From contig NCGO01000002.1 in the NCBI GenBank assembly GCA_002256985.1, positions 124,001 to 188,000 of the forward strand: a stretch of 64,000 nt of DNA. Reading direction: 5' to 3'. Positions 42,107-61,253 of the stretch are shown here, piece after piece. Position 1 is the stretch's first letter, and each line of letters begins with the position of its first letter. Origin of the DNA: Novosphingobium sp. 28-62-57. GTDB taxonomy: Bacteria; Pseudomonadota; Alphaproteobacteria; Sphingomonadales; Sphingomonadaceae. A program made the position numbers and the translations under genes. The notes beneath the pieces were generated by a model. That model was not told where the DNA came from and searched no databases. It saw nothing but the letters and a program-made list of their open reading frames with translations.

Positions 42107-43204
42107 CTAATGCCGACTCATGGTTAGAGGCCCCCACACCCCAGCCGGAACGGGCGTTCCCACCCGGCCAGAAACGCACGAGCGGGCGTAGCTCAGGGGT
42201 AGAGCACAACCTTGCCAAGGTTGGGGTCGAGGGTTCGAATCCCTTCGCCCGCTCCAGTTTGGGCCGCGCGGTGCGTTTGTGACTGCGCTGTTCGTTCCGC
42301 CGATCAGGATCGCTTTTTTCAGTTGGTTGCGCAGCCAGAGGTGTCCGCCATCGTTCTGGCGCAACGGGTGATACATGATGATGTCGTCCAAGGTCGGCAT
42401 GGCCAGCGGCACTTCCCACATGACGAGAGCGAAGCTGCGCAGCGAGGCTTCGGCCAGGCGTCGGTTCAGAATGGCGATGTGCTGAGTTTTGACCAGACAG
42501 GCGGGGATGCAGCCAAAGTTTGGCGCGATCAGGGCGGTGCGGTTTCGGCCGGAATAGAGCGCCATCTGCTGTTCTTCCAGAAGCAGGCCGAGGCGATGGC
42601 GATCAAATGGCACGATGACTTGCCGCAGCGACAGGACCGTGGCCAGATCAGGCTGTTCCTGCAGGCAGGTGTTATCCTTGCAGCCAAGCACGACAAGCTG
42701 GTTGGTTGCCAGAACTTCGCACGCATATTCAGGGTCGGCGTAGATCCCCGGTGTCAGCACGAGGTCCAGCTCTCCGGTTGCCAGCGAGGGGGAGGGATCG
42801 CGGCTGGGAGGGCGCACATCGATCATCACGCCCGGCGCTTCGGCAGAAAGCTGGCGCATCAGCATCGGCAGCACCACCAGTTGCAAATGATCGGGCATTT
42901 CCACCGTAAACTGGCGAGTGGAACGCGCTGGGATGAACTGGCGTTCGGTTTCGACCAAGCTGCCGATCTGCAGGATCACGTCCTTGACCGGCTTTTGCAG
43001 CGTTGCCGCAAGGGCCGAGGGCACCATTTGCCGCCCCGAGGCAACCAGCAGATCATCTTCGAAATGCTGCCGCAGCCGCGCAAGAGCCGCGCTCATCGCG
43101 GATTGGCCAACATGCATCCGTTCTGCGGCGCGGGTGACATTGCGCTCTTCCAGCAGCACGTCGAGGGCGACGAGCAGGTTCAGATCAAGACCTCTGAAGC
43201 GCAT
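42107..43204 (-). CDS. LysR-family regulator of the NodD-like type, C-terminus running through tRNA-Gly
   Basis: 365 residues from ATG 43204. The HTH is in residues 1-60 (DLNLLVALDVLLEERNVTRAAERMHVGQSAMSAALARLR); the effector domain follows (PDHLQLVVLPMLMRQLSAE, DLVLTPGIYADPEYACEVLA). Typical length is 300-310. Residues about 316-341 are antisense to tRNA-Gly (DSNPRPQPWQGCALPLSYAR), a sequence often seen when tRNA genes are mistranslated. So the native stop has probably been lost and the last 50 residues are not ancestral. Divergent from the TonB receptor, likely its regulator. Confidence 0.88.
   Translation of the reverse strand: MRFRGLDLNLLVALDVLLEERNVTRAAERMHVGQSAMSAALARLRQHFEDDLLVASGRQMVPSALAATLQKPVKDVILQIGSLVETERQFIPARSTRQFTVEMPDHLQLVVLPMLMRQLSAEAPGVMIDVRPPSRDPSPSLATGELDLVLTPGIYADPEYACEVLATNQLVVLGCKDNTCLQEQPDLATVLSLRQVIVPFDRHRLGLLLEEQQMALYSGRNRTALIAPNFGCIPACLVKTQHIAILNRRLAEASLRSFALVMWEVPLAMPTLDDIIMYHPLRQNDGGHLWLRNQLKKAILIGGTNSAVTNAPRGPNWSGRRDSNPRPQPWQGCALPLSYARSCVSGRVGTPVPAGVWGPLTMSRH
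42182..42256 (+). tRNA. tRNA-Gly (anticodon GCC)
   Basis: 75-nt cloverleaf with encoded CCA. Acceptor GCGGGCG (42182-42188) pairs with CGCCCGC (42246-42252), with discriminator T. The D arm is GCTC/GAGC, the anticodon stem CAACC/GGTTG is perfect, the loop TTGCCAA has GCC at 42214-42216, and the T arm is GAGGG-TTCGAAT-CCCTT with the usual TTCGA. It lies at the junction between the housekeeping region and the catabolic locus, and is overlapped on the other strand by the LysR reading frame. Confidence 0.97.
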
Positions 43205-43232
43205 AAGGTATCATCCAAATCGTTGGCTAAGC

Positions 43233-43247
43233 ATTGTATCAAACAAT
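43233..43247. promoter_or_regulatory. Candidate LysR box between LysR and TonB receptor 1
   Basis: ATTGTATCAAACAAT is a 15-bp palindrome of the T-N11-A type with ATTGT/ACAAT arms. It lies 28 bp upstream of the lysR start and about 226 bp before the TonB receptor, in the AT-richest part of the region, as expected for an autoregulated divergent promoter. Confidence 0.5.
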
Positions 43248-43473
43248 TACCACAATATGCGCGGCGGTCCTATATTGAAACCGCGCTGGACCTCACAGGA
43301 AACCGGTCAGCGCGGATAATGACGCGTCGGAGGGGCCATCCCACGAGTTCGAGTCCGCCTGTTCGGGCCCGCTTGTTCGGAATGGTGATCGATCACGAAG
43401 CGCGGGATCGAGGAGTGCTGAATTGCGGCACGGCTACGTTCCCTTCGTTGCGTCTTCAGGAGGGAGGATTTCA

Positions 43474-45852
43474 ATGCGCAATCTTACACTTACTCTGTTG
43501 CTTGGGGCTGCCATGCCCGGTGCAGCCTATGCCGCCGATGCCACGATGCTGCCCGCCGAACCGCAGGCGCAGCAAGACGCTGCGAACGGCGCTGCGGCGG
43601 ATCAACCCCGCGATTACGACATCGTTGTCACCGCACAACGCCGCACCGAGCGCCTGCAGGATGTTCCGGTCAGCGTGACCGCGGTTACATCGGAATCGCT
43701 GCGTTCGCTTGGCGTCACCAACCTGAGCCAGCTCAATCAGGCTGCCCCCAGCCTGCAAGTGAGCGGCGAGAACAACTTCACGATCCGCGGCGTGGGCACG
43801 CTGGCCTTTCAGCAGACGCTGGAATCAAGCGTGGCCATCCAGCAGGACGAAGTGAACCTTGCCAACTCGATCCTGGGCGGCGCAGTCGGCACGTTTTATG
43901 ACGTGGCCCGCGTTGAGGTTCTGAGCGGTCCGCAGGGCATGCTGTTTGGCAAGAACGCTTCGGCGGGCCTGCTCAACATTGTCACGAACCGCCCGAAGAT
44001 CGGCACGACCGAAGGCAATGTGCAGCTGGAAGGTGTGCACCGCCCGACAACACCGAACAACGGACTGGGCTTCATCGGTCAGGCGACGGTCAACGTGCCG
44101 GTGTCCGAAAATTCGGCGCTGCGCCTGAATGCGGTGTTCTCGACACAGGATCCGGTGGTGAAGTTCATCGGCAGTGGCAAGGGTGATTTCGGCCAAGAAC
44201 AGTGGGGCGTACGCGCCAAGTATCTGGTCAACTTGAGCGATGCGCTCTCGCTCTATGTCATCGGGGATTACAACAAGGAAAAGGGCATCGCGACGTATTT
44301 CGATCGCCCCTACCGAAATCTGTCGCCTCTGGGCGGCGCCGTGCCGCTTAACACGGCGCTGGGCATCGTGCCGAGCAATGAGAACTTGCTGATTGCGGGC
44401 AATGGCGATTTCTTCCGCGATGTAACCCGCGGCGGGGTTCAGGCGACGCTGGCCTATGAGCTGTCCTCGGGCATCGAAATCAGCAATACGGTGGCGTGGA
44501 AGGCTGCCGATCGCGAGCAGAACTTCGACACCGATTATACGAACAGCAACGGGGCGGACCGCAACTATTCGGACACGCGCTATCGCCAGTTCACCAACGA
44601 ATTGCGCGTGGCCCTGCCAGCGGGGGATCGCTTTACCGGGCAGGTCGGCCTGTTCTTCTTCAGCGCGCAGACCGATGTCGAGGCGCAGCTTGGCGGCAAC
44701 AGTCTGCGTCCGCAGAACCTGCTCACGCCATTTCCGTTCTGCGTTGGCGCAACCAACATCGGCGGCCCGCCGCCCGCATGCCCGCGCAGCAACGTGTTCT
44801 TCCTCGGCCAAGACCGCAACTATTCGCTCGACAGCAAGAGCTATGCCGCGTTCGGCCAGTTCACCTATGAGGTGGTCGACAACCTGAAGCTGATCGCAGG
44901 TGCGCGCGTTACGCATGACAAGCTGAAAATCGACTCGGTCCAGAACAACAGCTTCTACTTCGTCACGCTGGGTGGGCCCCGTCGTGAAGTAAAGGCGACC
45001 ACGTCGAACACTGACTTCAGCTATCGGCTTGGTGCGCAATACAACTTTGCCCGCGACGTGATGGTCTATGCGACCTATTCGCGCGGGTACAAGGGGCCGG
45101 GCTTTGCGGATCTCCTGCCCGCCACGGCAGCCTCGCCGGTGGTCGAGCCTGAAACGAACCGCAACATCGAGCTGGGCCTGAAGTCCACCTGGATGGACGG
45201 CAAGCTGTTGTTCAACCTCACCGCCTTCCATTCGAAGTTCAAGAACCTGCAGGTGTCTTCGTTCAATGCACTGGCCGGGGCAAACTTTGTGCAGAACGCT
45301 GCGGCTGCGGTGAGCAAGGGTATTGAAGTGCTGACCGTGATCCGTCCGGTGAGCGGCCTTTCGCTGACAGGGTCAGCCACGCTGCTGGATTCGAAGTTTG
45401 AAGATTTCCCGGGTGCAGAATGCTATCCCGGCCAGCAGACGCCTTCGTGCCTTACGCCGACGGGGCGCCAGTTCAACGCAGGCGGGTTGCGCACGCCCGT
45501 CTCGCCCGAACTGGTTGCCAATGGGCAGGTCAAGTATGAATGGGCGCTCGGCAGTGCGATCGATGCCTTCGTTGAAGGCAATATCACGCATCGCTCCTCG
45601 CAGTGGTTCACGGTCAATCAGGTGCCCGGAACGCAGTTCCGCGCGCATCAATTGCTGGGTGCCAGCCTTGGCGTGAGCGGCAAGGGCGGCTGGCGTGCCT
45701 CGGTATACTGCCGCAATTGCACTGATGAGCGCGTGCCGACCAATATCAGCACCGATCCTGCTGAAGCCAATGCGGGCCGCGTCGGGCTGGGCCACCTGTT
45801 CGGCTTCAACTCCGTGCGCCAGATCGGCGTGACGTTCGGCTTTGATTTCTGA
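43474..45852 (+). CDS. TonB-dependent outer-membrane receptor (first)
   Basis: 792 residues from ATG 43474, which has a strong AGGAGGGAGGA ribosome site. A signal peptide (MRNLTLTLLLGAAMPGAAYA) precedes a linker and the TonB-box-like DIVVTAQRR. The plug domain runs about 60-180 (LQDVPVSVTAVTSESLRSLGV, VEVLSGPQGMLFGKNASAGLLNIVT), followed by the beta-barrel, and the protein ends in the aromatic GVTFGFDF. It belongs to the Sphingomonad receptor type close to FyuA/CirA that handles plant and aromatic compounds, and it opens the operon with the deglycosidase genes, so it is the probable glycoside importer. Confidence 0.93.
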   Translation: MRNLTLTLLLGAAMPGAAYAADATMLPAEPQAQQDAANGAAADQPRDYDIVVTAQRRTERLQDVPVSVTAVTSESLRSLGVTNLSQLNQAAPSLQVSGENNFTIRGVGTLAFQQTLESSVAIQQDEVNLANSILGGAVGTFYDVARVEVLSGPQGMLFGKNASAGLLNIVTNRPKIGTTEGNVQLEGVHRPTTPNNGLGFIGQATVNVPVSENSALRLNAVFSTQDPVVKFIGSGKGDFGQEQWGVRAKYLVNLSDALSLYVIGDYNKEKGIATYFDRPYRNLSPLGGAVPLNTALGIVPSNENLLIAGNGDFFRDVTRGGVQATLAYELSSGIEISNTVAWKAADREQNFDTDYTNSNGADRNYSDTRYRQFTNELRVALPAGDRFTGQVGLFFFSAQTDVEAQLGGNSLRPQNLLTPFPFCVGATNIGGPPPACPRSNVFFLGQDRNYSLDSKSYAAFGQFTYEVVDNLKLIAGARVTHDKLKIDSVQNNSFYFVTLGGPRREVKATTSNTDFSYRLGAQYNFARDVMVYATYSRGYKGPGFADLLPATAASPVVEPETNRNIELGLKSTWMDGKLLFNLTAFHSKFKNLQVSSFNALAGANFVQNAAAAVSKGIEVLTVIRPVSGLSLTGSATLLDSKFEDFPGAECYPGQQTPSCLTPTGRQFNAGGLRTPVSPELVANGQVKYEWALGSAIDAFVEGNITHRSSQWFTVNQVPGTQFRAHQLLGASLGVSGKGGWRASVYCRNCTDERVPTNISTDPAEANAGRVGLGHLFGFNSVRQIGVTFGFDF

Positions 45853-45864
45853 ACTGGTACCAAG

Positions 45865-45906
45865 GCCGGGCGGTTGGCAGCAACTGCCCGGCTGACATTT
45901 TTGAAG
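45865..45906 (+). terminator. Hairpin with T-run after TonB receptor 1
   Basis: Stem GCCGGGC...GTTG / CAAC...GCCCGGC (45865-45892) with one mismatch and a 4-nt loop, then GACATTTTTG. It lies between the TonB gene and the next start at 45917. Because the downstream genes have no other clear promoter, it may act as an attenuator that keeps the downstream enzymes below the receptor level. Confidence 0.6.
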
Positions 45907-45916
45907 AAGGCCTGCG

Positions 45917-46930
45917 ATGTCGAAGATCAAACGGGGCGTCAGCCTCTACTCGTTTCAGGAAGAGATGTTTCTGGGCCAGATGGGCGTGGAGGACTGTGTG
46001 TCCTTTGCCGCTTCGATTGGAGCCACAGGCATCGAGATTCTGCCTGAACAGAACATGCCGACGTTCCCCGATCTGTCAGACGCGCAAGTGGATGAATGGA
46101 AGGCGATGGTTGCCCGCCACGGCTGCCACTTCACCGCCTATGACATGTTCCTCGACACCAAGCTGCGCAAGGATCAGCCGATGTCGGATGACGAGCAGAT
46201 CGAAAGCATCGTGCGCGATCTGACCTTGTGCAACCGGTTGGGCATCAAGAACATGCGCGTGCTGGTGTTCGTGCGGCCCGATATCCTTGGCCGCTGCGTG
46301 CCCTATGCCGAGAAGCTGGACGTGCATATGGGGGTCGAGGTCCATGCGCCGTGGCATCTGGAACATGCGTGGATCTTGCGCACCATCGAAGAAGCCGACC
46401 GGCTGGACACCAAGCACCTTGGCATCCTGCCCGACATGGGCATTTTCATGAAGCACTACCCACCCGCCTTCCGCGCCCGCTTTGAACGGCAGGGTGCGCG
46501 GCCCGAGGTGGCGCAGTTCATCGTGGATAGCCATGAGGCCAAGATCATGGCCGAATACACGATCTATGAAGTTGCCGTGAAAATGCAGGGCAACAAGGCC
46601 GAAGTGGCGATGGCCGAAACGCTGCGCCATGCGCCTTATGCCAATCCCAAGCGGCTGGCTGATTATGCGCCCTATTTCCATCACATTCAGGCCAAGTTCT
46701 ATGAGATGAACGAGGACTGCACCGACCCTGCGATTGCCTATGAAGACGTGATCGACGCGCTGGTGGGCTGCGGCTGGGAAGGCACGCTTTCCAGCGAATA
46801 CGAAGGCAACCGCTGGATTCAGGACGTGAGCGAAGTGGACAGTTGTGAGCAGGTGCGCCGCCAGCATGTGATGTTCGAACGGTTGATTGCAAAGGCGCAA
46901 GCGCGGCACGGCGTCAGGGAGGCTGCGTAA
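45917..46930 (+). CDS. C-glycoside deglycosidase alpha subunit-like (TIM-barrel isomerase/epimerase fold)
   Basis: 337 residues of the xylose isomerase-like TIM-barrel superfamily. Putative metal ligands Glu141 (MGVEVHAPW), Asp173 (ILPDMGIF), His256 (FHHIQAKFYEM) and Glu294 (LSSEYEGN) are in the positions used by the DgpB/CarB subunits. Those enzymes, with DgpC/CarC, cleave 3-keto-C-glycosides by beta-elimination. The identification depends mainly on the tight coupling to the DUF6379 gene (overlapping stop/start at 46930). A plain sugar isomerase is the alternative. No signal peptide: cytosolic. Confidence 0.82.
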   Translation: MSKIKRGVSLYSFQEEMFLGQMGVEDCVSFAASIGATGIEILPEQNMPTFPDLSDAQVDEWKAMVARHGCHFTAYDMFLDTKLRKDQPMSDDEQIESIVRDLTLCNRLGIKNMRVLVFVRPDILGRCVPYAEKLDVHMGVEVHAPWHLEHAWILRTIEEADRLDTKHLGILPDMGIFMKHYPPAFRARFERQGARPEVAQFIVDSHEAKIMAEYTIYEVAVKMQGNKAEVAMAETLRHAPYANPKRLADYAPYFHHIQAKFYEMNEDCTDPAIAYEDVIDALVGCGWEGTLSSEYEGNRWIQDVSEVDSCEQVRRQHVMFERLIAKAQARHGVREAA

Positions 46931-47319
46931 TGTTCGACAAATACATCATCGATCCATCAACCGTGCGCAACACCGGGCCGGAGGACGCGCCCGATGGCTT
47001 CGCGTTCGAAACCAAGCTCGGCTATTATCGCGGCTTGCGGCTGTCCATGGTCGAGGAACTCAACGTCGGGATTGATGGCGAGTTGTTTGCACGCGATGCC
47101 ATTCGTTTTGACGAGGGCGCCGGGCCACTGACGCTGTACGAAATGGAAACCACTTATGATCGGCGCTGGGCCTTTGGCGCTCCGGCGACGATCTATGTGA
47201 ATTGCCCCGGCGGATTTCCGAAAGGCGATCACACGCTTTCGCTGCAGCAAAAGCTGCGCATTTCGTACATGCCGTTCCCTTCGTTCAACAACGATGAAAA
47301 GCAGATCAGGTTCGGGTGA
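46930..47319 (+). CDS. C-glycoside deglycosidase beta subunit-like (DUF6379)
   Basis: A 129-residue all-beta protein: MFDKYIIDPSTVRNTG, then the segment GFAFETKLGYYRGLRLSMVEELNVGIDGE and FPKGDHTLSLQQKLRISYMPFP, which match the small subunit of C-deglycosylation enzymes (DgpC/CarC, DUF6379). In the known complexes the small subunit closes over the active site of the barrel subunit and binds the glycoside. Starts one base inside the preceding stop (TAATG), so the subunits are made together. The family is the strongest functional marker of the cluster. Confidence 0.87.
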   Translation: MFDKYIIDPSTVRNTGPEDAPDGFAFETKLGYYRGLRLSMVEELNVGIDGELFARDAIRFDEGAGPLTLYEMETTYDRRWAFGAPATIYVNCPGGFPKGDHTLSLQQKLRISYMPFPSFNNDEKQIRFG

Positions 47320-47405
47320 TACCGATCCGGCCGGACGAGCCTTGGCTTGGCCGGAACAGCCCCCGCGCACAACGACGATGGGGCCAGAACAAGGTGGAGA
47401 GCGAC

Positions 47406-48629
47406 ATGAATGAAACGCTGGCATTGACGCGCAAGCCCGGCATTGCGCAGGGCTGGACGATCATTCTGGCAGCGTTTCTGCCCATTCTGGCCATCGTCTC
47501 GCTGTTCCCGGCGGTTCCCTCGATCATCGCCCATTTCAGCAAAGAGCCGGGCGCGATGACCAAAGTGCCGGCGATGGTTTCAGCGCCGGGGCTGACGATT
47601 GCGATTGTCGCCCTATTTGCGGGGTTCCTCGTCGACCGGTTCGGGCGGCGGCGCCTGCTGATTGCGGCAGCGGCGATCTATGGCGTAGTGGGCATGGCGC
47701 CATTGGCGCTGAATGATCTTGATGCGATCTACGTGTCCCGCCTCGCGCTGGGTGTGCCAGAGGCGATCTTGCTGACCGCGCTGAACACGCTGATCGGCGA
47801 TTACTGGGATGGCAAGGAGCGGCGCAACTGGCTGGCCTTGCAGAACATGGTGGGGCCATTTCTGGCCAGCGGAGCGATCCTGCTGTCCGGCCACCTGACC
47901 GGGATATTCTGGAACGCTTCGTTCATGATCTATGGCGTCGGGTTCCTGATCTGCCTGCTGAGCTGGGCGTTCATCTACGAGCCACGGCAAGACATTGGCC
48001 TGCCCAGCACCAAGCTGGCCGCAGCCGAAGGAGCAAGCGCCTTTCCGATAAAGGGTGTGGTGACCTACGGCGTGGTCACGCTGCTGTCCTCGGCGCTTTA
48101 TTACGTGTTCATCATCAATGGCGCGATTGTGTGGGGCGAGATCGGGGTGACCAGTTCGCAGGAAGTGGCCAAACTCAGCGCGATCCCCAGCCTGTTCATC
48201 ATTGCAGGCGCAGTGCTGTTCTGGCTGACCGGGCGCTGGGGCCTTGGGCCTTATGGACAGATCACGATGTTCCTGAGCTTTCTGGGCACGGGGCTGGTGC
48301 TGGTCGGCTTTGCGCAGGACTGGCGCTGGATGACCGCGGGGATGATCGTGCAGCAAACCGGGGCAGGCATGGCCATCCCGGTGCTGATCGGGTGGGCGCA
48401 ATCGTTCCTGCCGTTTGAACATCGCGGGCGCGGGATGGGCGTGTGGACGGCGTGCTTCTTTCTCGGCCAGTTTACCTCGCCCCTGCTGATCAGCCTTTCG
48501 CGTCAGACGATGGGCACGATGCAGGGCGCATTCGTGGTGGCAGGGACCATCGGCATTGCAGGCGCGCTTGCGGTCGGCCTCTTTGCAGGGCTTGGCGCAA
48601 AGCCGCGCACAAGTGGAGCCGCAGCATGA
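47406..48629 (+). CDS. MFS permease (first), sugar/acid type
   Basis: 407 residues from ATG 47406, about twelve transmembrane helices with the MFS loop 2-3 motif DRFGRRRLL and the central cytoplasmic loop near residue 200. YGVVTLLSSALYYVFIINGAIVW begins the second half. The N-terminus is short (MNETLALTRKPGIAQGW). Placed between the deglycosidase and the oxidase genes, it probably carries the glycoside or its 3-keto product into the cytoplasm. The direction and substrate are inferred from position. Confidence 0.86.
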   Translation: MNETLALTRKPGIAQGWTIILAAFLPILAIVSLFPAVPSIIAHFSKEPGAMTKVPAMVSAPGLTIAIVALFAGFLVDRFGRRRLLIAAAAIYGVVGMAPLALNDLDAIYVSRLALGVPEAILLTALNTLIGDYWDGKERRNWLALQNMVGPFLASGAILLSGHLTGIFWNASFMIYGVGFLICLLSWAFIYEPRQDIGLPSTKLAAAEGASAFPIKGVVTYGVVTLLSSALYYVFIINGAIVWGEIGVTSSQEVAKLSAIPSLFIIAGAVLFWLTGRWGLGPYGQITMFLSFLGTGLVLVGFAQDWRWMTAGMIVQQTGAGMAIPVLIGWAQSFLPFEHRGRGMGVWTACFFLGQFTSPLLISLSRQTMGTMQGAFVVAGTIGIAGALAVGLFAGLGAKPRTSGAAA

Positions 48630-48734
48630 CCGCGCCGGCCTGTGACTATGCCGTTGGCCGGATCAAGGCTGGCGCGATCTGAACAGAAGAGCCCAACACC
48701 CACCTGATTGCTGCTGCTTGCAAAGGACATTGCG

Positions 48735-49349
48735 ATGCATTCTCCCGTCGAGATAAACCGAAGGACCGCACTGCACGGCATCATGCTGTTGCTGGGCGCA
48801 GTATCGGCACCCGGCTGCGCCTATCTGCCCGGGTCTTCAGAAAAGACCGCACTGCCTGCGCTTCAACGCCAGTTGCTCGATCTGGTGGCCGACGTGATGA
48901 TCCCGCAGACCGACACTGCAGGCGCGCTGAAGTCTGGAACGCCGCAACGGCTTGCCGCGATGTACCGCGATTGGGCCTCGGATGAGACGCGCGACCAGCT
49001 GTCAGGCGCGCTGGACCGGCTGGCCAAGAGCGCGCTGGATTCCACGCAAAAGACGTTTGCTGCGCTTTCGGCTGCGCAGCGGCTGGCCTTTTTGCAAGGT
49101 CACGATGCGGCCGCCCTGAAGCCGGTTCCGCGCAAGCCGGGCGCGCCCGAAGGCAGTTTCTTCGCGCCGATCCCCTCGGTGGTCGACGTTGGCTATCACC
49201 GGCTCAAGCAGCTGATCCTGGCCCTGCATTACACCAGCGAAGCCGCGCTTACCTCCGAGCTGGTCTATGACCATGTCCCCGGTCCGTGGGAGCCTTCCAT
49301 CAAGGTTACGCCCGGCATGCGCCCTGCCGCCTCTATTGGCCCGTTCTGA
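48735..49349 (+). CDS. Gluconate 2-dehydrogenase subunit 3 family protein with Tat signal
   Basis: 204 residues from ATG 48735. The N-terminus carries a twin-arginine signal, Arg9-Arg10 in INRRTALHGIMLLLG, with a possible lipobox cysteine (Cys28) after SAPG. The body has the subunit-3 features (LQRQLLDLVADVMIPQTDTAGALKSGTP, YTSEAALTSELVYDHVPGPW). In FAD-glucose and gluconate dehydrogenases this small subunit is needed for export and stability of the flavin subunit, which lacks its own signal. The GMC gene follows by 17 bp. No cytochrome subunit is found in the window. Confidence 0.85.
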   Translation: MHSPVEINRRTALHGIMLLLGAVSAPGCAYLPGSSEKTALPALQRQLLDLVADVMIPQTDTAGALKSGTPQRLAAMYRDWASDETRDQLSGALDRLAKSALDSTQKTFAALSAAQRLAFLQGHDAAALKPVPRKPGAPEGSFFAPIPSVVDVGYHRLKQLILALHYTSEAALTSELVYDHVPGPWEPSIKVTPGMRPAASIGPF

Positions 49350-49366
49350 TCGGAGCACCCCTTTTC

Positions 49367-51058
49367 ATGTCATTTGATGCCATCGTTATCGGTTCGGGAA
49401 TGAGCGGCGGGATTGCCGCCAAGGAATTGTGTGAGCGCGGCCTGAAAGTGCTGGTGCTGGAACGGGGCAAGAATATCGACCCGGCCCGGGACTATATGGA
49501 CCACCAGATGCCCTGGGAGTTTCCCAACAACATGCAGGTGCCGCAGGACGAGGTCGCGCGCGATTATCCAGTGCAGAGCGAATGCTATGCCTTTAGCGAG
49601 GCGACCAAGAAGTTCTGGCCGAAAGACAGCGAACAGCCCTATTCCACCCCCGAAACCAAGCCCTTCACGTGGATCAGGGGTGACCATCTGGGCGGGCGAT
49701 CGGTGATGTGGGGCCGCCAGAGCTATCGCCTGTCGCCCATGGATTTTGAGGCGAACGCCAAGGACGGCCATGGATGCGATTGGCCGATCCGCTATGATGA
49801 TCTGGCCCCATGGTACGATCATATCGAACGCTTCATCGGCGTGGCAGGATCAAAAGAAGGCCTGCCGCAACTGCCCGATGGCGAATTTCTGCCGCCATTT
49901 GCGCTGAACGATGCAGAACTGCAGTTCAAGGCTGCCGTCGAAACCCGCTTTACCGGTCGCAAGGTGATCCCCGGACGCACGGCCAACCTTTCCGTGGCGC
50001 AGCCGCATCACGAGGAGCTGGGGCGCACAAGCTGCCAGAACCGGTCTATCTGCGAGCGCGGATGCAGCTTTGGCGCGATGCATTCCAGCCTGACGTCATC
50101 GCTGCCCGCGGCGCAGCGCACCGGCAATCTGACGATCGTGACCGATGCCATCGTGCATTCGATCATCCATGATCCCAAATCCGGCAAGGCAACCGGTGTG
50201 CGGGTGATCGATGCCAAGACGATGGAGGGCCGCACTTATCAGGCCAAGCTGTTCTTCCTCAATGCATCGACCATCGGCACTGCGCAAATTCTGCTCAATT
50301 CAGCGTCAGAAGCCAATCCGCGCGGGCTGGCCAATGGGTCGGATCAGGTCGGCCGCAACCTGATGGACCATGTCTATGGACTGGTCACCATCGCGATCTT
50401 TCCGGGGCTGGAAGACCGCTACTATCACGGACGCCGCCCGACCGGGCTCTATGTGCCGCGCTTTCGCAATGTGACCGAACCGGGCGAGGGTTTTGTCCGG
50501 GGCTATGGCTATCAAGGCGGGCTCAGCCGATCGAGCGCGCGCGCCTCGGCCATGCAACCGGGGGTTGTCGGTGCACAGATCAAGGAGCGTGCCGGCCAGA
50601 TCGGGCCGTGGACCGCCTATCTCGGCGGCTTTGGCGAAATGCTCCCCCATCCCGACAACCGCGTGACACTGCACGCCACCCGCAAGGACAAGTGGGGCAT
50701 TCCCATCACGCATATCGATTGCGGGCACGGCCCGAATGAAAAGGCCATGTACCGGCACATTCTGGATGATGCGCGGACAATGCTGGAGGCGGCAGGTGGC
50801 CGCGTGGTGATGCAGACGCCCGAACCTGCCAAACCCGGCGTCGGCATTCACGAGATGGGCACCGCACGCATGGGCCGCGATCCGCGCACGTCGGTGATCA
50901 ACGGCTTCAACCAGGCGCATGACGTGCCGAACCTGTTCATCACCGATGGCGCGGCGATGGCCTCATCGGGGTGCCAAAACCCGTCGCTAACCTATATGGC
51001 GCTGACTGCCCGCGCGGCCGATCATGCGGTCAAGCTGATGAAGGAAAGTGCGATATGA
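49367..51058 (+). CDS. GMC-family FAD oxidoreductase, probable glycoside 3-dehydrogenase
   Basis: 563 residues from ATG 49367. The FAD-binding GSGMSGGIAA is at 9-18, and the active-site His and Asn pair lies in GIHEMGTARMG and ASSGCQNPSLTYMAL. Cys223, Cys229 and Cys233 (TSCQNRSICERGC) fit the 3Fe-4S cluster of FAD-glucose dehydrogenases such as the Burkholderia enzyme. No signal peptide, so export would depend on subunit 3. Expected reaction: oxidation of the C3 hydroxyl of glucosides, the first step of CarA/G3DH pathways. Its stop overlaps the ThuA gene start (ATGA). Alternatives are pyranose 2-oxidation or an alcohol substrate. Confidence 0.86.
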   Translation: MSFDAIVIGSGMSGGIAAKELCERGLKVLVLERGKNIDPARDYMDHQMPWEFPNNMQVPQDEVARDYPVQSECYAFSEATKKFWPKDSEQPYSTPETKPFTWIRGDHLGGRSVMWGRQSYRLSPMDFEANAKDGHGCDWPIRYDDLAPWYDHIERFIGVAGSKEGLPQLPDGEFLPPFALNDAELQFKAAVETRFTGRKVIPGRTANLSVAQPHHEELGRTSCQNRSICERGCSFGAMHSSLTSSLPAAQRTGNLTIVTDAIVHSIIHDPKSGKATGVRVIDAKTMEGRTYQAKLFFLNASTIGTAQILLNSASEANPRGLANGSDQVGRNLMDHVYGLVTIAIFPGLEDRYYHGRRPTGLYVPRFRNVTEPGEGFVRGYGYQGGLSRSSARASAMQPGVVGAQIKERAGQIGPWTAYLGGFGEMLPHPDNRVTLHATRKDKWGIPITHIDCGHGPNEKAMYRHILDDARTMLEAAGGRVVMQTPEPAKPGVGIHEMGTARMGRDPRTSVINGFNQAHDVPNLFITDGAAMASSGCQNPSLTYMALTARAADHAVKLMKESAI

Positions 51059-52230
51059 TAGTGCGTGCAAGACCTGGCCGCTGGGCCATGATCATGGCGG
51101 CGGCGGTCGGCCTTGCTGTGGCCGCACCAGTTCAGGCGCGTGCGCCCCGGTTGCTGGATTGCCCCATGCGCGATGCCGCGTTTTCGCTGGAGAGCCCGCT
51201 GATCGACGTGCTGCTGAGCGATGCCGCCAAGGCCGTGATCGACCAGCAGGCCCCCGGCGCGATCCAGCAGATCCCCTCGTTTCTTTCCGGCACCCGCGCG
51301 CCGACCTTCAGCGCCATCCTGAAACTCAAAAACCTGAAGGATATGGTTCCTGCGCTGAAGGCGGCCGATGGTGCGGCATTGGATCGGGCATTGCAGGCCC
51401 TTCCGGTCACGCGCGCAGACCAGCTGGCGCGGTGCGCGCGCTACGATGACGAACGCCCCAAATTCAAGCTGGGCCAATCGCAGACGAGCGGGGGCAAGCT
51501 GCGCGTGCTCGTGTTCGAAAAGATGACCGGCTTTCGCGATGGTCCCTCAGTCGCCGCAGCCCACGCCGCGTTTGAGACGCTGGCCAAGCGCAATGGCTGG
51601 GCGATTGCCTTCACCGACAAGGGCGGCGCCATGCACCGTTCGGTTCTGCGCAAATTCGATGTGGTGATCTGGAACAATGTCAGCGGCGATGTGCTGACCC
51701 TGTCGCAGCGCACAGCGTTCCGATCCTTTGTTGAAAACGGCGGCGGCTATGTCGGCATCCATGGATCGGCCGGAGACCCGGAGTATTTCTGGGACTGGTA
51801 TCCCGACACCTTGATTGGCGCGCGCTTCATCGGCCATCCCAACGATCCGCAATTTCAGGATGCCCAAGTCGTGATCGAACCATCGGCCACCGGTGTCGGG
51901 CGTGATCTTGGCCCAGGCTGGACGATGAACGATGAATGGTACTCCTTTGCCAAGAGCCCGCGGCTGAGCGGCGCACACATCATCGCCACGCTGAACGAGG
52001 ATACCTACAAGCCCGGCACCGCGCTGTTCGTCGGCACCTCGCTTGCGATGGGCGCAGACCATCCGATCGCCTGGGCCCGCTGCGTCGGCAAGGGGCGGTC
52101 CTTCTATTCGGCCATCGGGCACCGGCCCGAAGTCTATGCCGATGCGCATCATCTGAAACTGCTTGAACAAGGCGTGGCATGGTCCGCACAAGGCGGCGGC
52201 TCTGCCTGCTCGGGCGTGTCGGCCCGATGA
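51055..52230 (+). CDS. Secreted ThuA-domain protein
   Basis: 391 residues from ATG 51055 with a signal peptide (IMAAAVGLAVAAPVQARA). The first 130 mature residues match no domain I know (SFLSGTRAPTFSAILKLKNL). A ThuA/glutamine amidotransferase-like domain follows: LRVLVFEKMTGFRDGPSVAAA, VVIWNNVSGDVL, and FVENGGGYVGIHGSAGDPEYFWDWYP, and it ends with GHRPEVYADAHHLKLL. ThuA takes part in 3-keto-trehalose metabolism in rhizobia, so its place next to a glycoside 3-dehydrogenase supports a 3-keto-sugar role. Periplasmic if the signal is used. Confidence 0.84.
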   Translation: MIVRARPGRWAMIMAAAVGLAVAAPVQARAPRLLDCPMRDAAFSLESPLIDVLLSDAAKAVIDQQAPGAIQQIPSFLSGTRAPTFSAILKLKNLKDMVPALKAADGAALDRALQALPVTRADQLARCARYDDERPKFKLGQSQTSGGKLRVLVFEKMTGFRDGPSVAAAHAAFETLAKRNGWAIAFTDKGGAMHRSVLRKFDVVIWNNVSGDVLTLSQRTAFRSFVENGGGYVGIHGSAGDPEYFWDWYPDTLIGARFIGHPNDPQFQDAQVVIEPSATGVGRDLGPGWTMNDEWYSFAKSPRLSGAHIIATLNEDTYKPGTALFVGTSLAMGADHPIAWARCVGKGRSFYSAIGHRPEVYADAHHLKLLEQGVAWSAQGGGSACSGVSAR

Positions 52231-52264
52231 ACCGCGCCAACACAGATCGGGCGCGGTGCCGGTG

Positions 52265-53569
52265 ATGAGCGCGGCTGCACCGGCATGGCCGCCTGCCAAC
52301 CACCGCTCGATCTTCTGGATCAGCGTGCTGGCGCTTTTCACCGCCGCGTTAAGCAATGCGGTCCGGGCTGGCGCTGCCGGAGCGATCAAGACCGCCGTGC
52401 TCGACCCGATCGATGCGCAGCGCGGCGGCGAGATGATTGGCACCGTGCTTGGCAACAGCTTTCTGGGATTTGCAATCAGCCTGCTGGTGATCAGCCCATT
52501 GCTCGACCGGATCGGAGCCAAAAGAGTTATTCTGTTTGCCGCCGCCTGCTTCATTGCCGGGCCATGCCTTGTGCTGGCAGCACCCGGGGCGGGGACATCG
52601 GTTTATACGGTGCTCAACATGGCCATGATCATCTGGGGGTTCGGCTGGGGCGCAACCGAGGCGACGATCAACCCGCTGGCCACGACGCTCTATCCCGATG
52701 ACAAGACCGGCAGGCTCAATGTCCTGCACGCGTGGTGGCCGGCCGGTATCGTGCTGGGTGGCGTGCTGAGTGTGCTCTTTTTCAAGCAGTTGGCACTGCA
52801 ATGGGAACTGCTGGTCGGCCTCACAATCATCCCCGGCGTCGTGCTGGCGTTCTGGACAATGCGCCACACCTTCCCGCAAACGCAAAGCACGGCGCAAGGC
52901 GTACCCTTTGGCGAAATGATGGCCGAACCGTTCAGGCGGCCCGGTTTCTGGGTGTTCTTTGTCATCATGTTCCTCACCGCCTCGGCCGAACTTGCACCGG
53001 GCGCGTGGGTGGACGTGACTCTGACTGAAACGGTTGGCTTCTCGGGCATATTGGTGCTGGTCTATGTCTCGGCGATCATGTTCGTGATGCGGCATTTCGC
53101 CGGGGCGCTGGACCATCGCTTTTCGGACATGGGCCTGTTGTGGTTCAGCACCGTGCCTGCGGCGCTCGGCCTCTATCTGCTCAGCACGGCGACATCGGCG
53201 GCGACGGCGCTGGTTGCCGCGACATTCTGGGCCGTGGGCGTATGCTTCATGTGGCCGACCATGCTTGCGGCTGTTGCCCGCCGTTTCCCCAAAAGCGGGC
53301 CGTGGGGCATTGGCTTGGTGGGGTTTGCAGGCGCACTCGCCATCCGCTTTGTGTTGCCGCAATTGGGCACGATCTACGATCAGGCCAAAATCGCCAAAGC
53401 TGGCGGACCCGAGGCTTTGGCCGCGCTCCAGCCCGGATCCGCCGGGATGCAGGCCGTATTGGCCCATGCCGCTGAAACGTCGTTCCAAACCGTCGCGATC
53501 ATTCCGGTCGTGCTGTGCGGTTTGTTCGGTGCGGTCTGGTTTCTCGAACGCGGCAAAGTAACGAAATGA
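52265..53569 (+). CDS. MFS permease (second), FucP/sugar type
   Basis: 434 residues from ATG 52265, about twelve helices. VLGNSFLGFAISLLVISPLLDRIGAKRVILFA is the first-half start with the MFS motif DRIGAKR, and GFGWGATEATINPLATTLYPDDKTGRLNVLHAWWPAGIVLGG matches the sugar-MFS half 1-2 loop. No RBS sequence stands out but GTG ATG lie together at the start. It lies in the same run as the epimerase (10 bp). Likely carries a sugar or keto sugar; the two MFS genes of the cluster are only distantly alike. Confidence 0.86.
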   Translation: MSAAAPAWPPANHRSIFWISVLALFTAALSNAVRAGAAGAIKTAVLDPIDAQRGGEMIGTVLGNSFLGFAISLLVISPLLDRIGAKRVILFAAACFIAGPCLVLAAPGAGTSVYTVLNMAMIIWGFGWGATEATINPLATTLYPDDKTGRLNVLHAWWPAGIVLGGVLSVLFFKQLALQWELLVGLTIIPGVVLAFWTMRHTFPQTQSTAQGVPFGEMMAEPFRRPGFWVFFVIMFLTASAELAPGAWVDVTLTETVGFSGILVLVYVSAIMFVMRHFAGALDHRFSDMGLLWFSTVPAALGLYLLSTATSAATALVAATFWAVGVCFMWPTMLAAVARRFPKSGPWGIGLVGFAGALAIRFVLPQLGTIYDQAKIAKAGGPEALAALQPGSAGMQAVLAHAAETSFQTVAIIPVVLCGLFGAVWFLERGKVTK

Positions 53570-53579
53570 GCCATGCATC

Positions 53580-54440
53580 ATGAAAATCGGAATGAACCTG
53601 CTGCTGTGGTCGGGGCATATCGGCTCTGAACACGCCGATCTGTTGCGGGCGATCAAGGCAACCGGCTTTGATGGTGTCGAAGTGCCAGTGTTTGATCCTG
53701 CCGATACCGATCATTATGCCACGCTGGGCGCAATGCTCGATGATATCGGGCTGGAACGCACCGCCGTCGCCCTGATTCCCGATGAGGCGCATAGCCCCAT
53801 TTCGCCTGATGCAGCGGCCCGGCAGGGTGCAGTGGACCATCTGACAAGGGTCATCGATTGCTGCGCTGCTCTGGGCAGTCAGGGGCTTGTCGGGCCGTGG
53901 TATCAGCCCTTGGGCGTGTTTTCCGGCGCAGGACCGACCGATACCGAACTGGAGCGTTGTGCCGATGTGCACCGTGCCATTGCGGGAAAGGCGCGCGACG
54001 CCGGCATGTTCTGCGCGCTGGAACCTCTCAACCGCTTCGAAAGCTACTTGCTAAACACGTGCGAGCAATCCAGCGCCTATCTTGAACGGCTTGGCGAGCC
54101 GGGTTTCGGCATCCTTTACGATACGTTCCACGCCAATATCGAAGAAAAGGATCCCGTCGCAGCGCTCACCACGGCGCTTGCCAAAGGGCATGTCAATCAT
54201 GTCCATATCAGCGAGAACGACCGCGGCACACCGGGGCGTGGCCATGCCTGCATTCGCGAGACAATCGCTGAACTCAAAGCCAGACACTATGATGGCTGGC
54301 TGACCATTGAGGCCTTCGGCAAAGCCTTGCCCGAACTGGCCGCGGCCACCCGCGTGTGGCGCGATTTCTTCGTCAATCCCGAAGAGGTCTATGTCGAAGG
54401 GTACCGCTATATCACGCAATGCCTTGAGCATTCCGCGTAA
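53580..54440 (+). CDS. Sugar epimerase/isomerase of the D-tagatose 3-epimerase (hydroxypyruvate isomerase-like) group
   Basis: 286-residue TIM-barrel enzyme. Metal ligands are in CALEPLNRFESYLLNT (Glu), ILYDTFHANIEEKD (Asp and His), HVNHVHISENDRGTPGRGH (His), and GWLTIEAFGKAL (Glu), giving the full set of the DTE/YcjR family. In E. coli, YcjR changes the C4 configuration of 3-keto-glycosides, so action on the released 3-keto sugar or anhydro sugar is plausible. It ends the first half of the locus; 247 bp with no other gene follow to TonB receptor 2. Confidence 0.85.
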   Translation: MKIGMNLLLWSGHIGSEHADLLRAIKATGFDGVEVPVFDPADTDHYATLGAMLDDIGLERTAVALIPDEAHSPISPDAAARQGAVDHLTRVIDCCAALGSQGLVGPWYQPLGVFSGAGPTDTELERCADVHRAIAGKARDAGMFCALEPLNRFESYLLNTCEQSSAYLERLGEPGFGILYDTFHANIEEKDPVAALTTALAKGHVNHVHISENDRGTPGRGHACIRETIAELKARHYDGWLTIEAFGKALPELAAATRVWRDFFVNPEEVYVEGYRYITQCLEHSA

Positions 54441-54687: not shown

Positions 54688-57009
54688 ATGATCAGTCTGA
54701 AATCGCTTATGATCAGCACGGCCAACATTTGCAGCGTATCTTTGCTGGCGCTGGCATCTGCCGCCCAAGCTTCCGATGCATTCGCGCAAGACGCGGGCGC
54801 TCCGCAGTCCGCCGACGAAACAGCCGCCAGCGGTGATTCCGCCATCGTCGTCACCGCGCGCCGCCGGGTGGAAACCCTGCTAGAAGTGCCGGTTTCGGTA
54901 TCGGTCGCCACCGCAGAACAGCTGGCCCGCGATCAGATTTACACGCTCACCGATCTGCAGCGCATTACCCCTGCACTGGAAGTGAGCCAGACTTCGGGCG
55001 GCGAAAACAATGGCGGCGCGCGTCTGCGCGGCCTTGGCACGGCGGTGTTCAACTCATCGGTCACGCCTTCGGTCGCCTTTGTGGTGGATGATGTGCCGCA
55101 AGGCAACCTTGCCTTCCCGCAACTGTTCGACATGGGCCAGGTCGAAGTGCTGCGCGGGCCGCAGGGCACATTGTTCGGCCAGTCGGCTTCGGCTGGTGTG
55201 GTCAATGTCCGTTCGGTTGCGCCCAGCCTTGATGGCTACAGCGCGCAATTTGGCGTCGATTTTGCCGACAAGGGTACGGGCGGTGCGGAATACGGCCTGC
55301 TGGTGCTGCGCGCCGCGATCAACGCCCCACTGTCTGACAAGATCGCGGTGCGCATCGCCAGCCAGCTGCGCGAGGAAAAGGGCCTGCAGCGCAATGTCCG
55401 CCTCGGCAACGATTCAAATATCCGCGATGTCGGCGTGCGCGGGCGCATCCTCGCCAAGCCGACCGAGACGCTGACGGTGAACCTGACGGCTGAATACAAC
55501 AACAACCGCACGCGCGGCACGAACTTCTTCGTCCTCGCCATCGCGCCCACCGGACAGGCCAACAGCACCGCATCCAACAATGCCTTCACCAATCCGGCCG
55601 GGAACTGCCGCATGGTAATCAGCGCGCGGGCAGAACAGTACTGTTCCGAGCTGGAGCCTGCGCAGAGCAGCGAAGTGTTGAGCCTGTCGGGCATGCTCGA
55701 TCTTGAACTCGGCGATGTCACGCTCACCTCGATCACGTCATACCGCAAGCTGGACCGCGAAGTCGTCCGGCAGGACTTCACCCGCCTTGCAGGCGCGGCA
55801 TCGGCCCGCAGCGAAAACCTGCTGCAGAACGTCAACCAGTTCACGCAGGAAGTGCGCGCCAATTACAGCGGCAATGGCTTCGACGTGATCGGCGGCGTGT
55901 TCTATGCCAAATACAACTACGATCAGCTGCCGCTGGGCGGCACGTTCGGCGCACGCACGCCCGCTGATCGCGTCGGCTTCAGCATCTGCAATGCCGGCGG
56001 CACTTTCTGCATCCCCGGCGCTGGCACACCAACCTTCACCCGCGAAGATACGCAAAGCACGACATATGCCGCCTTTGCCGATGTGACGGTCAACCTGTCG
56101 GACCAGATCGATCTGTTTGGCGGGCTGCGCTATACCGATTTCGATACCTCGCTCGGCATCGGCCTGAACCGCGTTACCACCTCCAACCGGTCATCGATCA
56201 AGGACGATAACCTGTCGGGCCGCATCGGCCTGCGCTATCAGCCCAACCGCGATCTGAATATCTATGCCTCCTACGCCCGCGGCTACAAGACGCCTGCGCT
56301 GGTGGTGAATGCCGATCCCAGCGTGGCAACGGTGAACCTGAAGCCGGAACTGGCCGATGCGTTCGAAGTGGGCGTCAAATATGCGGTCACCCCGGACATT
56401 CAGCTGGAAGCCAACGCCTATTACAACAAGACCAAGAATTTCCAGAGCCAGACGCAGCAGCTGATCAACACCCAGCTGGTGTCGGTGGCCAACAACATTC
56501 CCTCTGTCACTTCACGCGGGATCGAGCTGAGCGCGTTTGGCAGGGTCAGCGAAAACCTGACCTTCAACGCTGGCTACCAGTTCAATGTCGTCAAGTATCC
56601 TTCGGGCTTCCTGTCGGACGATGGGGCCAATATCGGCGGCCAGCAGTTGGTCTTCGCGCCGCGCCACAAGGCCTCGCTCTCGGGCGAATATTCGCGCGGC
56701 GTCTTTGGCGATGTGCAGGCCTTCCTCAACGCCAACGTGGTCTACAAGAGCGCGACCCTGCTGGCTGCGCGCGTTGACCCACGCTATCGCTTCCCGGCCC
56801 ATGCCACCATCGGCGGTGCCATCGGCATTCGCGAGGCAGAGAACGCCTGGCGCGCCTCGATCTTCGTGCGCAACCTGACCAAGCAGCGCGAGCCGACCGC
56901 CTACCTTGCCAACTCGTTCGCAGGCTCGATCGATGGCGGCATCCGCGCATGGCCGGTTGGCGGCCTCACCGCGCGCGTGGTGGGTCTGTCATTCGATGCC
57001 AGCTTCTGA
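54688..57009 (+). CDS. TonB-dependent outer-membrane receptor (second)
   Basis: 773 residues from ATG 54688, with a GGGGAGGG ribosome site. A signal peptide to about residue 34 (ASAAQASDAFAQ) precedes the TonB-box-like AIVVTARRRVETLLEVPVSV. The plug has VEVLRGPQGTLFGQSASAGVVNV; the barrel ends in RVVGLSFDASF. The 247-bp upstream gap (54441-54687) probably carries its promoter. It leads the aromatic half of the locus, and the sequence is only moderately similar to the first receptor, so the two may import different glycosides or free aglycones. Confidence 0.93.
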   Translation: MISLKSLMISTANICSVSLLALASAAQASDAFAQDAGAPQSADETAASGDSAIVVTARRRVETLLEVPVSVSVATAEQLARDQIYTLTDLQRITPALEVSQTSGGENNGGARLRGLGTAVFNSSVTPSVAFVVDDVPQGNLAFPQLFDMGQVEVLRGPQGTLFGQSASAGVVNVRSVAPSLDGYSAQFGVDFADKGTGGAEYGLLVLRAAINAPLSDKIAVRIASQLREEKGLQRNVRLGNDSNIRDVGVRGRILAKPTETLTVNLTAEYNNNRTRGTNFFVLAIAPTGQANSTASNNAFTNPAGNCRMVISARAEQYCSELEPAQSSEVLSLSGMLDLELGDVTLTSITSYRKLDREVVRQDFTRLAGAASARSENLLQNVNQFTQEVRANYSGNGFDVIGGVFYAKYNYDQLPLGGTFGARTPADRVGFSICNAGGTFCIPGAGTPTFTREDTQSTTYAAFADVTVNLSDQIDLFGGLRYTDFDTSLGIGLNRVTTSNRSSIKDDNLSGRIGLRYQPNRDLNIYASYARGYKTPALVVNADPSVATVNLKPELADAFEVGVKYAVTPDIQLEANAYYNKTKNFQSQTQQLINTQLVSVANNIPSVTSRGIELSAFGRVSENLTFNAGYQFNVVKYPSGFLSDDGANIGGQQLVFAPRHKASLSGEYSRGVFGDVQAFLNANVVYKSATLLAARVDPRYRFPAHATIGGAIGIREAENAWRASIFVRNLTKQREPTAYLANSFAGSIDGGIRAWPVGGLTARVVGLSFDASF

Positions 57010-57017
57010 AAACGCTG

Positions 57018-57040
57018 CGGGGCAGCATCGTGCTGCCCCG
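57018..57040 (+). terminator. Hairpin after TonB receptor 2
   Basis: Perfect 10-bp stem CGGGGCAGCA / TGCTGCCCCG with a 3-nt loop, 9 bp after the receptor stop and about 48 bp before the amidohydrolase start. A weak T-rich stretch follows. Same placement as the hairpin after TonB receptor 1. Confidence 0.6.
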
Positions 57041-57088
57041 TGCCACAACGTTTGAATTGTTCTGCACCAACACGCAGCCGGAGTAAGC

Positions 57089-61162: not shown

Positions 61163-61253
61163 TCGTAGGGCCTTTGTCGCCAGTTCTGCTGCAGCACTCC
61201 TGATCGGAGCGGGCGGCAGCACAACAGCGGCAAGGCCACGGGGAGACACGAGA

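Follow-up and report, generated by a model that had tools for sequence, protein, structure and literature searches.

Gene content of the locus

The DNA stretch analysed here (hereafter the window, positions 1–64,000) comes from the 4.1-Mb genome of Novosphingobium sp. 28-62-57; other loci are designated with L-numbers. A preliminary description had assigned positions 43474–54440 to the catabolism of C-glycosides or 3-keto-glycosides in a Gram-negative bacterium, with an overlapping TIM-barrel and DUF6379 gene pair as the alpha and beta subunits of a C-glycoside deglycosidase (CGD). All the genes it listed were found as open frames in their places, which makes the gene list correct. They form a single string on the plus strand, located 3' of a divergent LysR gene, in the order TonB receptor, alpha, beta, MFS, Gluconate_2-dh3, GMC, ThuA, MFS and epimerase. 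The features of this region are as follows (FAD, flavin adenine dinucleotide):

42107–43204, minus strand: LysR-type regulator, divergent from the operon (Pfam HTH_1 1.3e-12, LysR_substrate 4.1e-12)
43231–43248, plus strand: putative LysR operator GCATTGTATCAAACAATT, 18 bp (exact pattern in LysR-TonB1 intergenic regions)
43474–45852, plus strand: TonB-dependent outer-membrane receptor 1 (TonB1), 792 aa from ATG 43474 (Pfam TonB_dep_Rec 2e-41, Plug 4.3e-13)
45864–45893, plus strand: terminator-like hairpin in the gap between the TonB and alpha genes, 13 pairs followed by a T-rich tail (20 such sites against 13.3 expected)
45917–46930, plus strand: CGD alpha subunit, TIM barrel (Pfam AP_endonuc_2 2.8e-13; 50% to 8qvc)
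46930–47319, plus strand: CGD beta subunit, DUF6379 gene (PF19906 CGDB, E 1.6e-34, 118.6 bits against a cut-off of 27.6)
47316–48629, plus strand: MFS transporter 1 (PF07690 5.3e-31; 81% in L003)
48708–49349, ATG 48735, plus strand: Gluconate_2-dh3 small subunit, or subunit 3 (PF13618 3.4e-18)
49286–51058, likely start 49367, plus strand: GMC FAD dehydrogenase (fructose dehydrogenase large subunit 4.2e-52)
50971–52230, likely start 51055, plus strand: ThuA-domain protein with a signal-peptide-like N terminus (PF06283 9.7e-51)
52163–53569, likely start about 52265, plus strand: second MFS transporter (PF07690 7.5e-20)
53580–54440, plus strand: AP_endonuc_2 sugar epimerase, tagatose/allulose (psicose) 3-epimerase-like (PF01261 7.9e-38)

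The listed plus-strand frames of the operon are separated by -88 to +78 bases, several of them probably starting later, and the alpha and beta genes overlap by one base (TAATG). The hairpin at 45864–45893 is a possible attenuator that could set the receptor-to-enzyme ratio. MFS 1, a homologue of which was present in 42 of 63 close relative loci, is proposed as the inner-membrane carrier of the glycoside or 3-keto-glycoside. The epimerase matched the solved structures 7erm (4.8e-37) and 6wn6, a 3-keto-D-glucoside 4-epimerase (1.4e-14). By gene families, a Gram-negative bacterium here does have genes for C-glycoside or 3-keto-glycoside use and a TonB receptor in one gene string, as had been described. 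The earlier account did not include the substituted metal ligand of the alpha subunit (Gln for His), the fructose-dehydrogenase-like nature of the GMC protein and its subunit 3, the aromatic module, the GH1 and GH106 genes or the rhamnose catabolism genes presented below.

The alpha and beta subunits and their predicted metal site

The alpha and beta subunits each matched eight distinct solved sequences at E <= 0.01, and all of them were CGD-type entries (Dgp, Dfg, AgCar or 'CGD'); the comparison with solved Dgp and Car structures that had been suggested for this pair thus bears out its assignment. Among the solved structures, both subunits come closest to the Deinococcus aerius C-glucosyl deglycosidase (phmmer 8.9e-103 with alpha, 9.9e-17 with beta), to which the AlphaFold model of alpha (mean pLDDT 82.6) aligned with 50% identity and a TM score of 0.90. 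A PF19906 beta gene beside an AP_endonuc_2 alpha gene is the arrangement that marks the CGD/CGE family. The CGD match goes beyond chance, since all 14 control genomes are without a PF19906 match. This domain is rare: of 398 Pseudomonadota genomes sampled, three have it above the cut-off (the source genome and two of its family), as do 17 of 298 genomes of the source family, the source genome included.

A scan of 84,980 species genomes yielded 170 relatives, and the best 80 loci were used for comparison. A CGDB-like beta gene followed alpha in all 80, with a gap of more than 500 bases in 14 of them, several of which hold an alpha/beta-hydrolase gene in the gap. Two clusters of neighbouring genes were identified by Pfam as alpha/beta hydrolase (Peptidase_S9-like) and GH39. 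The barrel of alpha is of the xylose-isomerase-like type common to epimerases, and these occupy the structure matches from rank 17 onward, which would fit an isomerase or epimerase of a 3-keto-sugar rather than a lyase. Such a role is very improbable: among the matches listed, the top 16 chains were all CGD-type, with isomerases and epimerases lower, and both the TM score with the Deinococcus CGD and the constant presence of the beta gene in the 80 relative loci argue against it.

The metal ligands of AgCGD2 (the AgCGD enzymes come from Arthrobacter globiformis, not from Agrobacterium) are given in PMC8563793 as E147, D179, H269, K271 and E305, with H149 and E307 acting in catalysis. According to the same source, the H269A change dramatically reduces activity in PuCGD and MiCGD. 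The residues of the window alpha were numbered with an alignment that reproduces those AgCGD2 residues and was cross-checked with 7dnm and 7bvr; it comprises 120 rows (119 homologues plus the window), some of which are one record present twice (e.g. L047 and L097). The corresponding residues of the window protein are E141, H143, D173, Q258, K260, E294 and E296. Six of them (E141, H143, D173, K260, E294 and E296) are invariant in 120/120 rows, the seventh position being either Gln or His. The catalytic His (PuCGD H143) and the supporting Glu (E301) are retained as H143 and E296. Of the 1His/2Glu/1Asp/1Lys metal site, E141, D173, K260 and E294 are kept, and the counterpart of His269 is Gln258.

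The window alpha shares Gln at position 258 with each of the 66 homologues that are 75.5–95% identical to it. The remaining 53 homologues have His (46, of 24–48% identity) or Gln (seven, of 28–30%) there, and in the solved alpha chains compared the residue is Gln in the Microbacterium testaceum CGD (8qrz) and His in the other six. A tree was built by a quick method, which carries a long-branch warning, from 123 rows (116 of the 120 alpha rows and seven solved chains, four rows shorter than 285 aa having been dropped). The window fell in a 67-row clade with an SH-aLRT support of 100, and a second Gln group holds the M. testaceum CGD. The Gln/His label needs two changes on this tree, indicating that Gln arose more than once, or was lost. 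Since Gln can still act as a ligand, Gln258 is read as part of a variant rather than a dead metal site.

In the beta subunit, Tyr39 of PuCGE is required for the cleavage of C-glycosides and hardly for that of O-glycosides, and Tyr39Phe abolishes C- but not O-cleavage (PMC10628242). Its counterpart in the window, placed through the offset of the match (11–116 to 17–122), is Tyr33. This position is Tyr in 107 of 108 beta rows, and the remaining row is a gap in a truncated frame. Taken together, the alpha-beta enzyme belongs, by sequence and predicted fold, to the CGD family, with a substitution at one of the metal ligands, and alpha is proposed to be a metal-dependent 3-keto-C-glycoside beta-eliminase.

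Other CGD pairs were observed in related genomes. The source genome has a second alpha-beta pair on contig C21 (L108:2550-3949), with an alpha subunit 42% identical and His at the metal-ligand place; it adjoins genes clustering with GH3, an AP_endonuc_2 epimerase, an MFS/GPH carrier and a TonB receptor. Plasmid pNL2 of N. aromaticivorans (L112:12656-17671) contains two different CGD pairs a few kb apart, accompanied by ThuA, DUF1080, GMC, GPH symporter and TonB genes. Up to three pairs from different family branches were present in single genomes of the source family (L084/L099/L106 in G036 and L088/L100/L107 in G127). Ideonella (Burkholderiales; L040 and L042) has a Gln-clade CGD that falls inside the sphingomonad clade and lies near an aromatic hydroxylase gene; it was likely acquired by horizontal transfer.

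Predicted sugar oxidation, neighbourhoods of relatives and putative control of the operon

The GMC protein gave its best matches with the fructose dehydrogenase large subunit (4.2e-52) and FAD glucose dehydrogenase (3.1e-44), and those with pyranose oxidases were weak (7.2e-11 or poorer), which does not support an oxidase of the CarA/PurA type. The Gfo/Idh/MocA family was not found among the genes scanned from 42107 to 63872, so an oxidant of the DgpA type is not present among them. Inspection of subunit 3 by eye revealed a leader like that of the twin-arginine translocation (Tat) pathway, starting at ATG 48735. A GMC large subunit paired with a Tat-type Gluconate_2-dh3 protein is the composition of an FAD sugar dehydrogenase complex. 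A cytochrome c electron-transfer subunit was not found among the genes of the locus, the genome not having been searched for it. From these matches, the GMC protein looks like a glycoside C3 dehydrogenase of the fructose-dehydrogenase type with a Tat-like subunit, and this function is proposed for it.

The families accompanying the CGD genes were counted in Pfam-tested families at 55 Gln-clade (close) loci and 15 others that mostly have His, each 14 kb or longer, the representatives having been chosen from the same loci as were counted. The Gln clade comprises 63 of the 80 loci, 61 of them from Sphingomonadales genera or bins and two from Ideonella. MFS genes were present in 38 of the 55 close loci, followed by TonB (33), aromatic FAD hydroxylase (PF01494; 32), GMC (25), Gfo (21), VOC (20), the cyclase family (19), LysR (19), GH1 (18), Gluconate_2-dh3 (14), GH43 (13) and fumarylacetoacetate hydrolase (FAH; 12). 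The corresponding numbers in the 15 other loci were TonB 6, Gfo 6, hydroxylase 5, VOC 5, GMC 5 and GH1 1. A GMC gene of the window's type was found in 14 of the 55, and a Croceicoccus plasmid has GMC and Gluconate_2-dh3 annotated side by side. As a background for the hydroxylase count, the source genome has seven clear FAD_binding_3 places (E <1e-12; 19 matches in total). On a plasmid of Deinococcus aetherius, a CGD of 50% identity is directly followed by GMC, VOC, cyclase, FAH and prolyl-oligopeptidase-type hydrolase genes and by FAD-dependent oxidoreductases, together with an ABC importer; we read this locus as a similar chemistry with a different uptake.

TonB adjacency was rejected as stand-alone evidence. 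It is weak because TonB plug domains number 66 in the 4.1 Mb of the source genome, so that about 27% of 20-kb stretches are expected to hold one; the TonB counts given above (33/55 against 6/15) come from loci that are related and not independent, and binomial figures calculated from them therefore overstate significance. The gene order is more informative. The arrangement of a divergent LysR gene followed by TonB1, alpha, beta and MFS recurs in four sphingomonad loci, L039, L046, L047 and L113 (the last on plasmid pBSY17_1 of Sphingobium RAC03). In all four, a TonB1 orthologue 66–67% identical lies directly upstream of alpha, and the LysR protein is 59–62% identical to that of the window in L039, L046 and L047 and 55% in L113. 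The operon continues with GMC and Gfo genes in 4/4 of these loci, and with GH43, GH1 and AP_endonuc_2 epimerase genes in 3/4 each. The best NCBIfam models for the window's LysR protein were BsrA, LelA and LeuO, all of them below the cut-off, and these do not show it to be of the NodD type, as had been described.

The operator pattern GCATYRNAWCAAWCAATT occurred exactly five times in the 1.87 Mb of the loci and the window, each time in the LysR-TonB1 intergenic region; the pattern was derived from four of the five loci found, L113 alone being independent. A second operator upstream of TonB-dependent receptor 2 (TonB2) was not found, and elsewhere in the window the pattern recurs only with three mismatches, at chance level. 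A weak sigma-70-like promoter follows the operator at 43247–43276, although the promoter scan gave fewer sites than shuffled sequences. The strongest argument for counting the TonB receptor as part of the CGD pathway comes from the conserved LysR-TonB-alpha-beta order and the operator, and it is proposed that the divergent LysR protein controls the operon from this conserved putative operator.

Proposed catabolic island and its relation to known systems

Downstream of the CGD operon lie the following genes, which include an aromatic module of the meta-cleavage type:

54688–57009, plus strand: TonB-dependent receptor 2 (PF00593 8.3e-43)
57089–58306, plus strand: amidohydrolase (PF01979 2.2e-26; 85% to N. 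aromaticivorans pNL2)
58303–59832, plus strand: MhpA-like FAD aromatic hydroxylase (NF004829, 478.9 bits, cut-off 390)
59829–60257, plus strand: HbpS-like heme-binding family protein (PF03928 2.6e-32)
60203–61162, likely start 60254, plus strand: VOC extradiol-dioxygenase-like protein (catechol 2,3-dioxygenase model 7.3e-16, below cut-off; 3b59 2.4e-31)
61059–62087, plus strand: FAH family protein (PF01557 5.9e-64; HpaG C-terminal model 5.8e-44, below cut-off)
62027–62911, plus strand: alpha/beta hydrolase, esterase-like (BD-FAE 1.4e-20)
62898–64000, minus strand: GH1 beta-glucosidase-like gene, extending past the window to about 64244 (PF00232 2.2e-35)

A truncated GH1 gene was rejected, as a homologue of 449 aa aligns over residues 1–449 with 56% identity across the window end. 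Past the window, the same contig has a GH106 alpha-L-rhamnosidase gene (1034.8 bits) and then an esterase-like gene of a type found in 25 other loci. A 777-aa plus-strand frame at L109:51-2384, without any Pfam match and overlapped by GH1 and GH106 on the opposite strand, was discarded. Beside GH106 (L109:5701-14847) are genes for L-rhamnose isomerase and a bifunctional RhaD (both above the cut-off), L-lactate dehydrogenase, an MFS protein and a DeoR regulator. The presence of GH106 and the rhamnose genes points to rhamnosylated flavonoid glycosides as the most likely substrate class. It was also observed that a twin-arginine stretch resembling a signal precedes the likely start in the FAH frame (61059–62087), with a similar in-frame stretch in N. 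aromaticivorans pNL2; export of the FAH would be unexpected if ring cleavage takes place in the cytoplasm.

Our interpretation, judged from gene content and given a probability of about 0.7, is that the genes of this region form an inducible island for the catabolism of plant aryl glycosides, the most likely substrates being flavonoid C-glucosides with O-linked rhamnose or glucose. Several observations weigh against it. The metal ligand His269, needed in PuCGD and MiCGD, is replaced by Gln in alpha, and the locus lacks a Gfo/Idh/MocA 3-keto-sugar reductase, which is present in 21 of the 55 close loci. The window's ThuA, second MFS, amidohydrolase, MhpA-like hydroxylase and FAH were found in none of the 80 relative loci (E 1e-12, more than 40% coverage), where the hydroxylases and FAHs are of other types. 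A gap of 247 bp separates the CGD operon from the aromatic module, which starts with its own TonB receptor. Lastly, three plasmids (N. aromaticivorans pNL2, Novosphingobium ES2-1 p1 and one of Sphingobium RAC03) carry the module on its own, its genes from amidohydrolase to FAH being in the same order and no CGD gene lying in the stretches inspected; the tie of the module to C-glycosides therefore comes from its position and from analogy with other CGD loci.

The gap, the separate receptor, the stand-alone plasmid modules, the operator matches at chance level elsewhere in the window and the lack of the window's hydroxylase and FAH types in the CGD loci would all suit two or three unrelated neighbours without a shared substrate: the CGD operon (43474–54440), a general sphingomonad aromatic module (54688–62911) and a rhamnose locus. 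We regard this alternative as doubtful, though it deserves consideration. Other CGD loci hold aromatic genes of their own, with hydroxylase and VOC genes together in 19 of the 55 (a cyclase-family gene in addition in 16, FAH in eight), GH1 is present in 18 of the 55, and GH106 homologues occur in 9 of 108 other loci.

It is unlikely that 3-keto-O-glucosides of plant phenolics (of the phlorizin, rutin or hesperidin type) are the main substrates of the alpha-beta enzyme, with C-glycosides being minor or unused. PuCGE does cleave 3-keto-phlorizin besides C-glycosides (PMC10628242), the His-to-Gln change could alter the active site, and the GH1, GH106 and rhamnose genes suit flavonoid O-rhamnoglucosides equally. 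However, beta retains the Tyr on which C-glycoside cleavage by PuCGE depends, the closest solved enzyme is titled C-glucosyl deglycosidase, and the solved M. testaceum CGD likewise has Gln at that place.

In a catabolic island for flavonoid C-glucosides, the pathway may be outlined as follows. O-linked sugars would be trimmed by GH1 and GH106, and the C-glycoside would cross the outer membrane via the TonB receptor. The kinship with fructose dehydrogenase and the GlycDH precedent suggest a periplasmic oxidation of the C-linked sugar at C3 by the GMC dehydrogenase and its Tat-like subunit, after which the 3-keto-C-glycoside would enter the cytoplasm via the MFS carrier. There, the alpha-beta CGD is predicted to free the aglycone by metal-dependent beta-elimination, with H143 as acid/base and Y33 of beta holding the aglycone phenolate. 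The resulting 2-hydroxy-3-keto-glucal or 3-keto-glucose could be processed by the epimerase and the ThuA protein. In the least certain step, an aromatic ring, perhaps that of the aglycone, would be opened by the MhpA-like hydroxylase, the VOC protein and the FAH hydrolase. In its widest form the proposal is tentative: sphingomonads may have a separate branch of C-glycoside lyases with the metal His changed to Gln, set in islands that cover TonB import of rhamnosylated flavonoid C-glycosides, their C3 oxidation by a dehydrogenase in the periplasm, C-C cleavage in the cytoplasm and finally the opening of the aglycone ring.

C-glycosides resist hydrolysis. If the proposal is true, the island would be a complete Gram-negative system for C-glycoside mineralisation with its own oxidant, metal site and regulator and, having dozens of relatives, would illustrate how Gram-negative bacteria use C-glycoside carbon. 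The LysR-operator pair is a possible glycoside sensor. A lyase clade with an altered metal site would also be of value for mechanism and for biocatalysis, the reverse reaction yielding aryl C-glycosides (PMC13273386).

Known systems had been described as Gram-positive. This holds for the CGDs characterised in the literature cited here, which come from Firmicutes or Actinobacteria (the Deinococcus CGD is known from its structure title), but a restriction of CGDs to Gram-positives was rejected, as PMC8563793 (Mori 2021) and PMC12724307 (on PurABC) report homologues from Proteobacteria/Pseudomonadota in database searches. A Gram-negative 3-keto-O-glycoside pathway is known as well, from Agrobacterium (PMC10628242). 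No paper on a sphingomonad C-glycoside lyase was among the matches listed in the open-licence literature. On the basis of its predicted genes, what is new here is a Gram-negative, TonB-fed CGD system with a fructose-dehydrogenase-type dehydrogenase and a Gln-site clade; the kind of system is itself known.

The CGD of D. aerius TR0125 (8qvc, 8qvd, 8umc; from structure titles) is the nearest to the window alpha and the best PDB match of beta, but it has His where the window has Gln. The D. aetherius locus differs in its ABC importer, with no TonB receptor annotated within 10 kb of the CGD. The M. testaceum CGD (8qrz, 8un2; from structure titles) shares the Gln at the metal-ligand place, but it is a single 435-aa chain matching beta plus alpha and belongs to a separate tree branch. 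DgpABC of the PUE strain, with PuCGD, shares the alpha-beta lyase family, the catalytic His143 and the beta Tyr39; it differs in its low alpha identity (26%, 7bvr), in its origin from a gut bacterium and in its oxidant DgpA, of the Gfo/Idh/MocA family (PMC11239390), which was not found in the window locus. For the aromatic module, the A-ring cleavage of the fde (Herbaspirillum, naringenin) and ifc (Variovorax, isoflavone) systems is described with the same reaction order of FAD hydroxylase, glyoxalase-type dioxygenase and hydrolase (PMC11069340, PMC11303751), the likeness being one of families only and the window hydroxylase being MhpA-like.

CarABC (Microbacterium) and PurABC (Paenarthrobacter) also combine an alpha-beta lyase with an oxidising enzyme of the GMC superfamily (PMC8563793, PMC12724307). 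Their FAD C-glycoside oxidases, however, are related to pyranose oxidases (PMC10807413), whereas the window GMC is fructose-dehydrogenase-like and accompanied by Gluconate_2-dh3. The Agrobacterium GlycDH/AtOGE route is, like that proposed for the window, a Gram-negative 3-keto-glycoside route, with a flavoenzyme dehydrogenase and a TAT-signal partner (PMC10628242), although AtOGE is unrelated to CGD in sequence and specific for O-glycosides (PMC10628242). Likened by description, the GMC protein and subunit 3 thus appear to resemble the GlycDH flavoenzyme and its TAT protein rather than DgpA or CarA/PurA.

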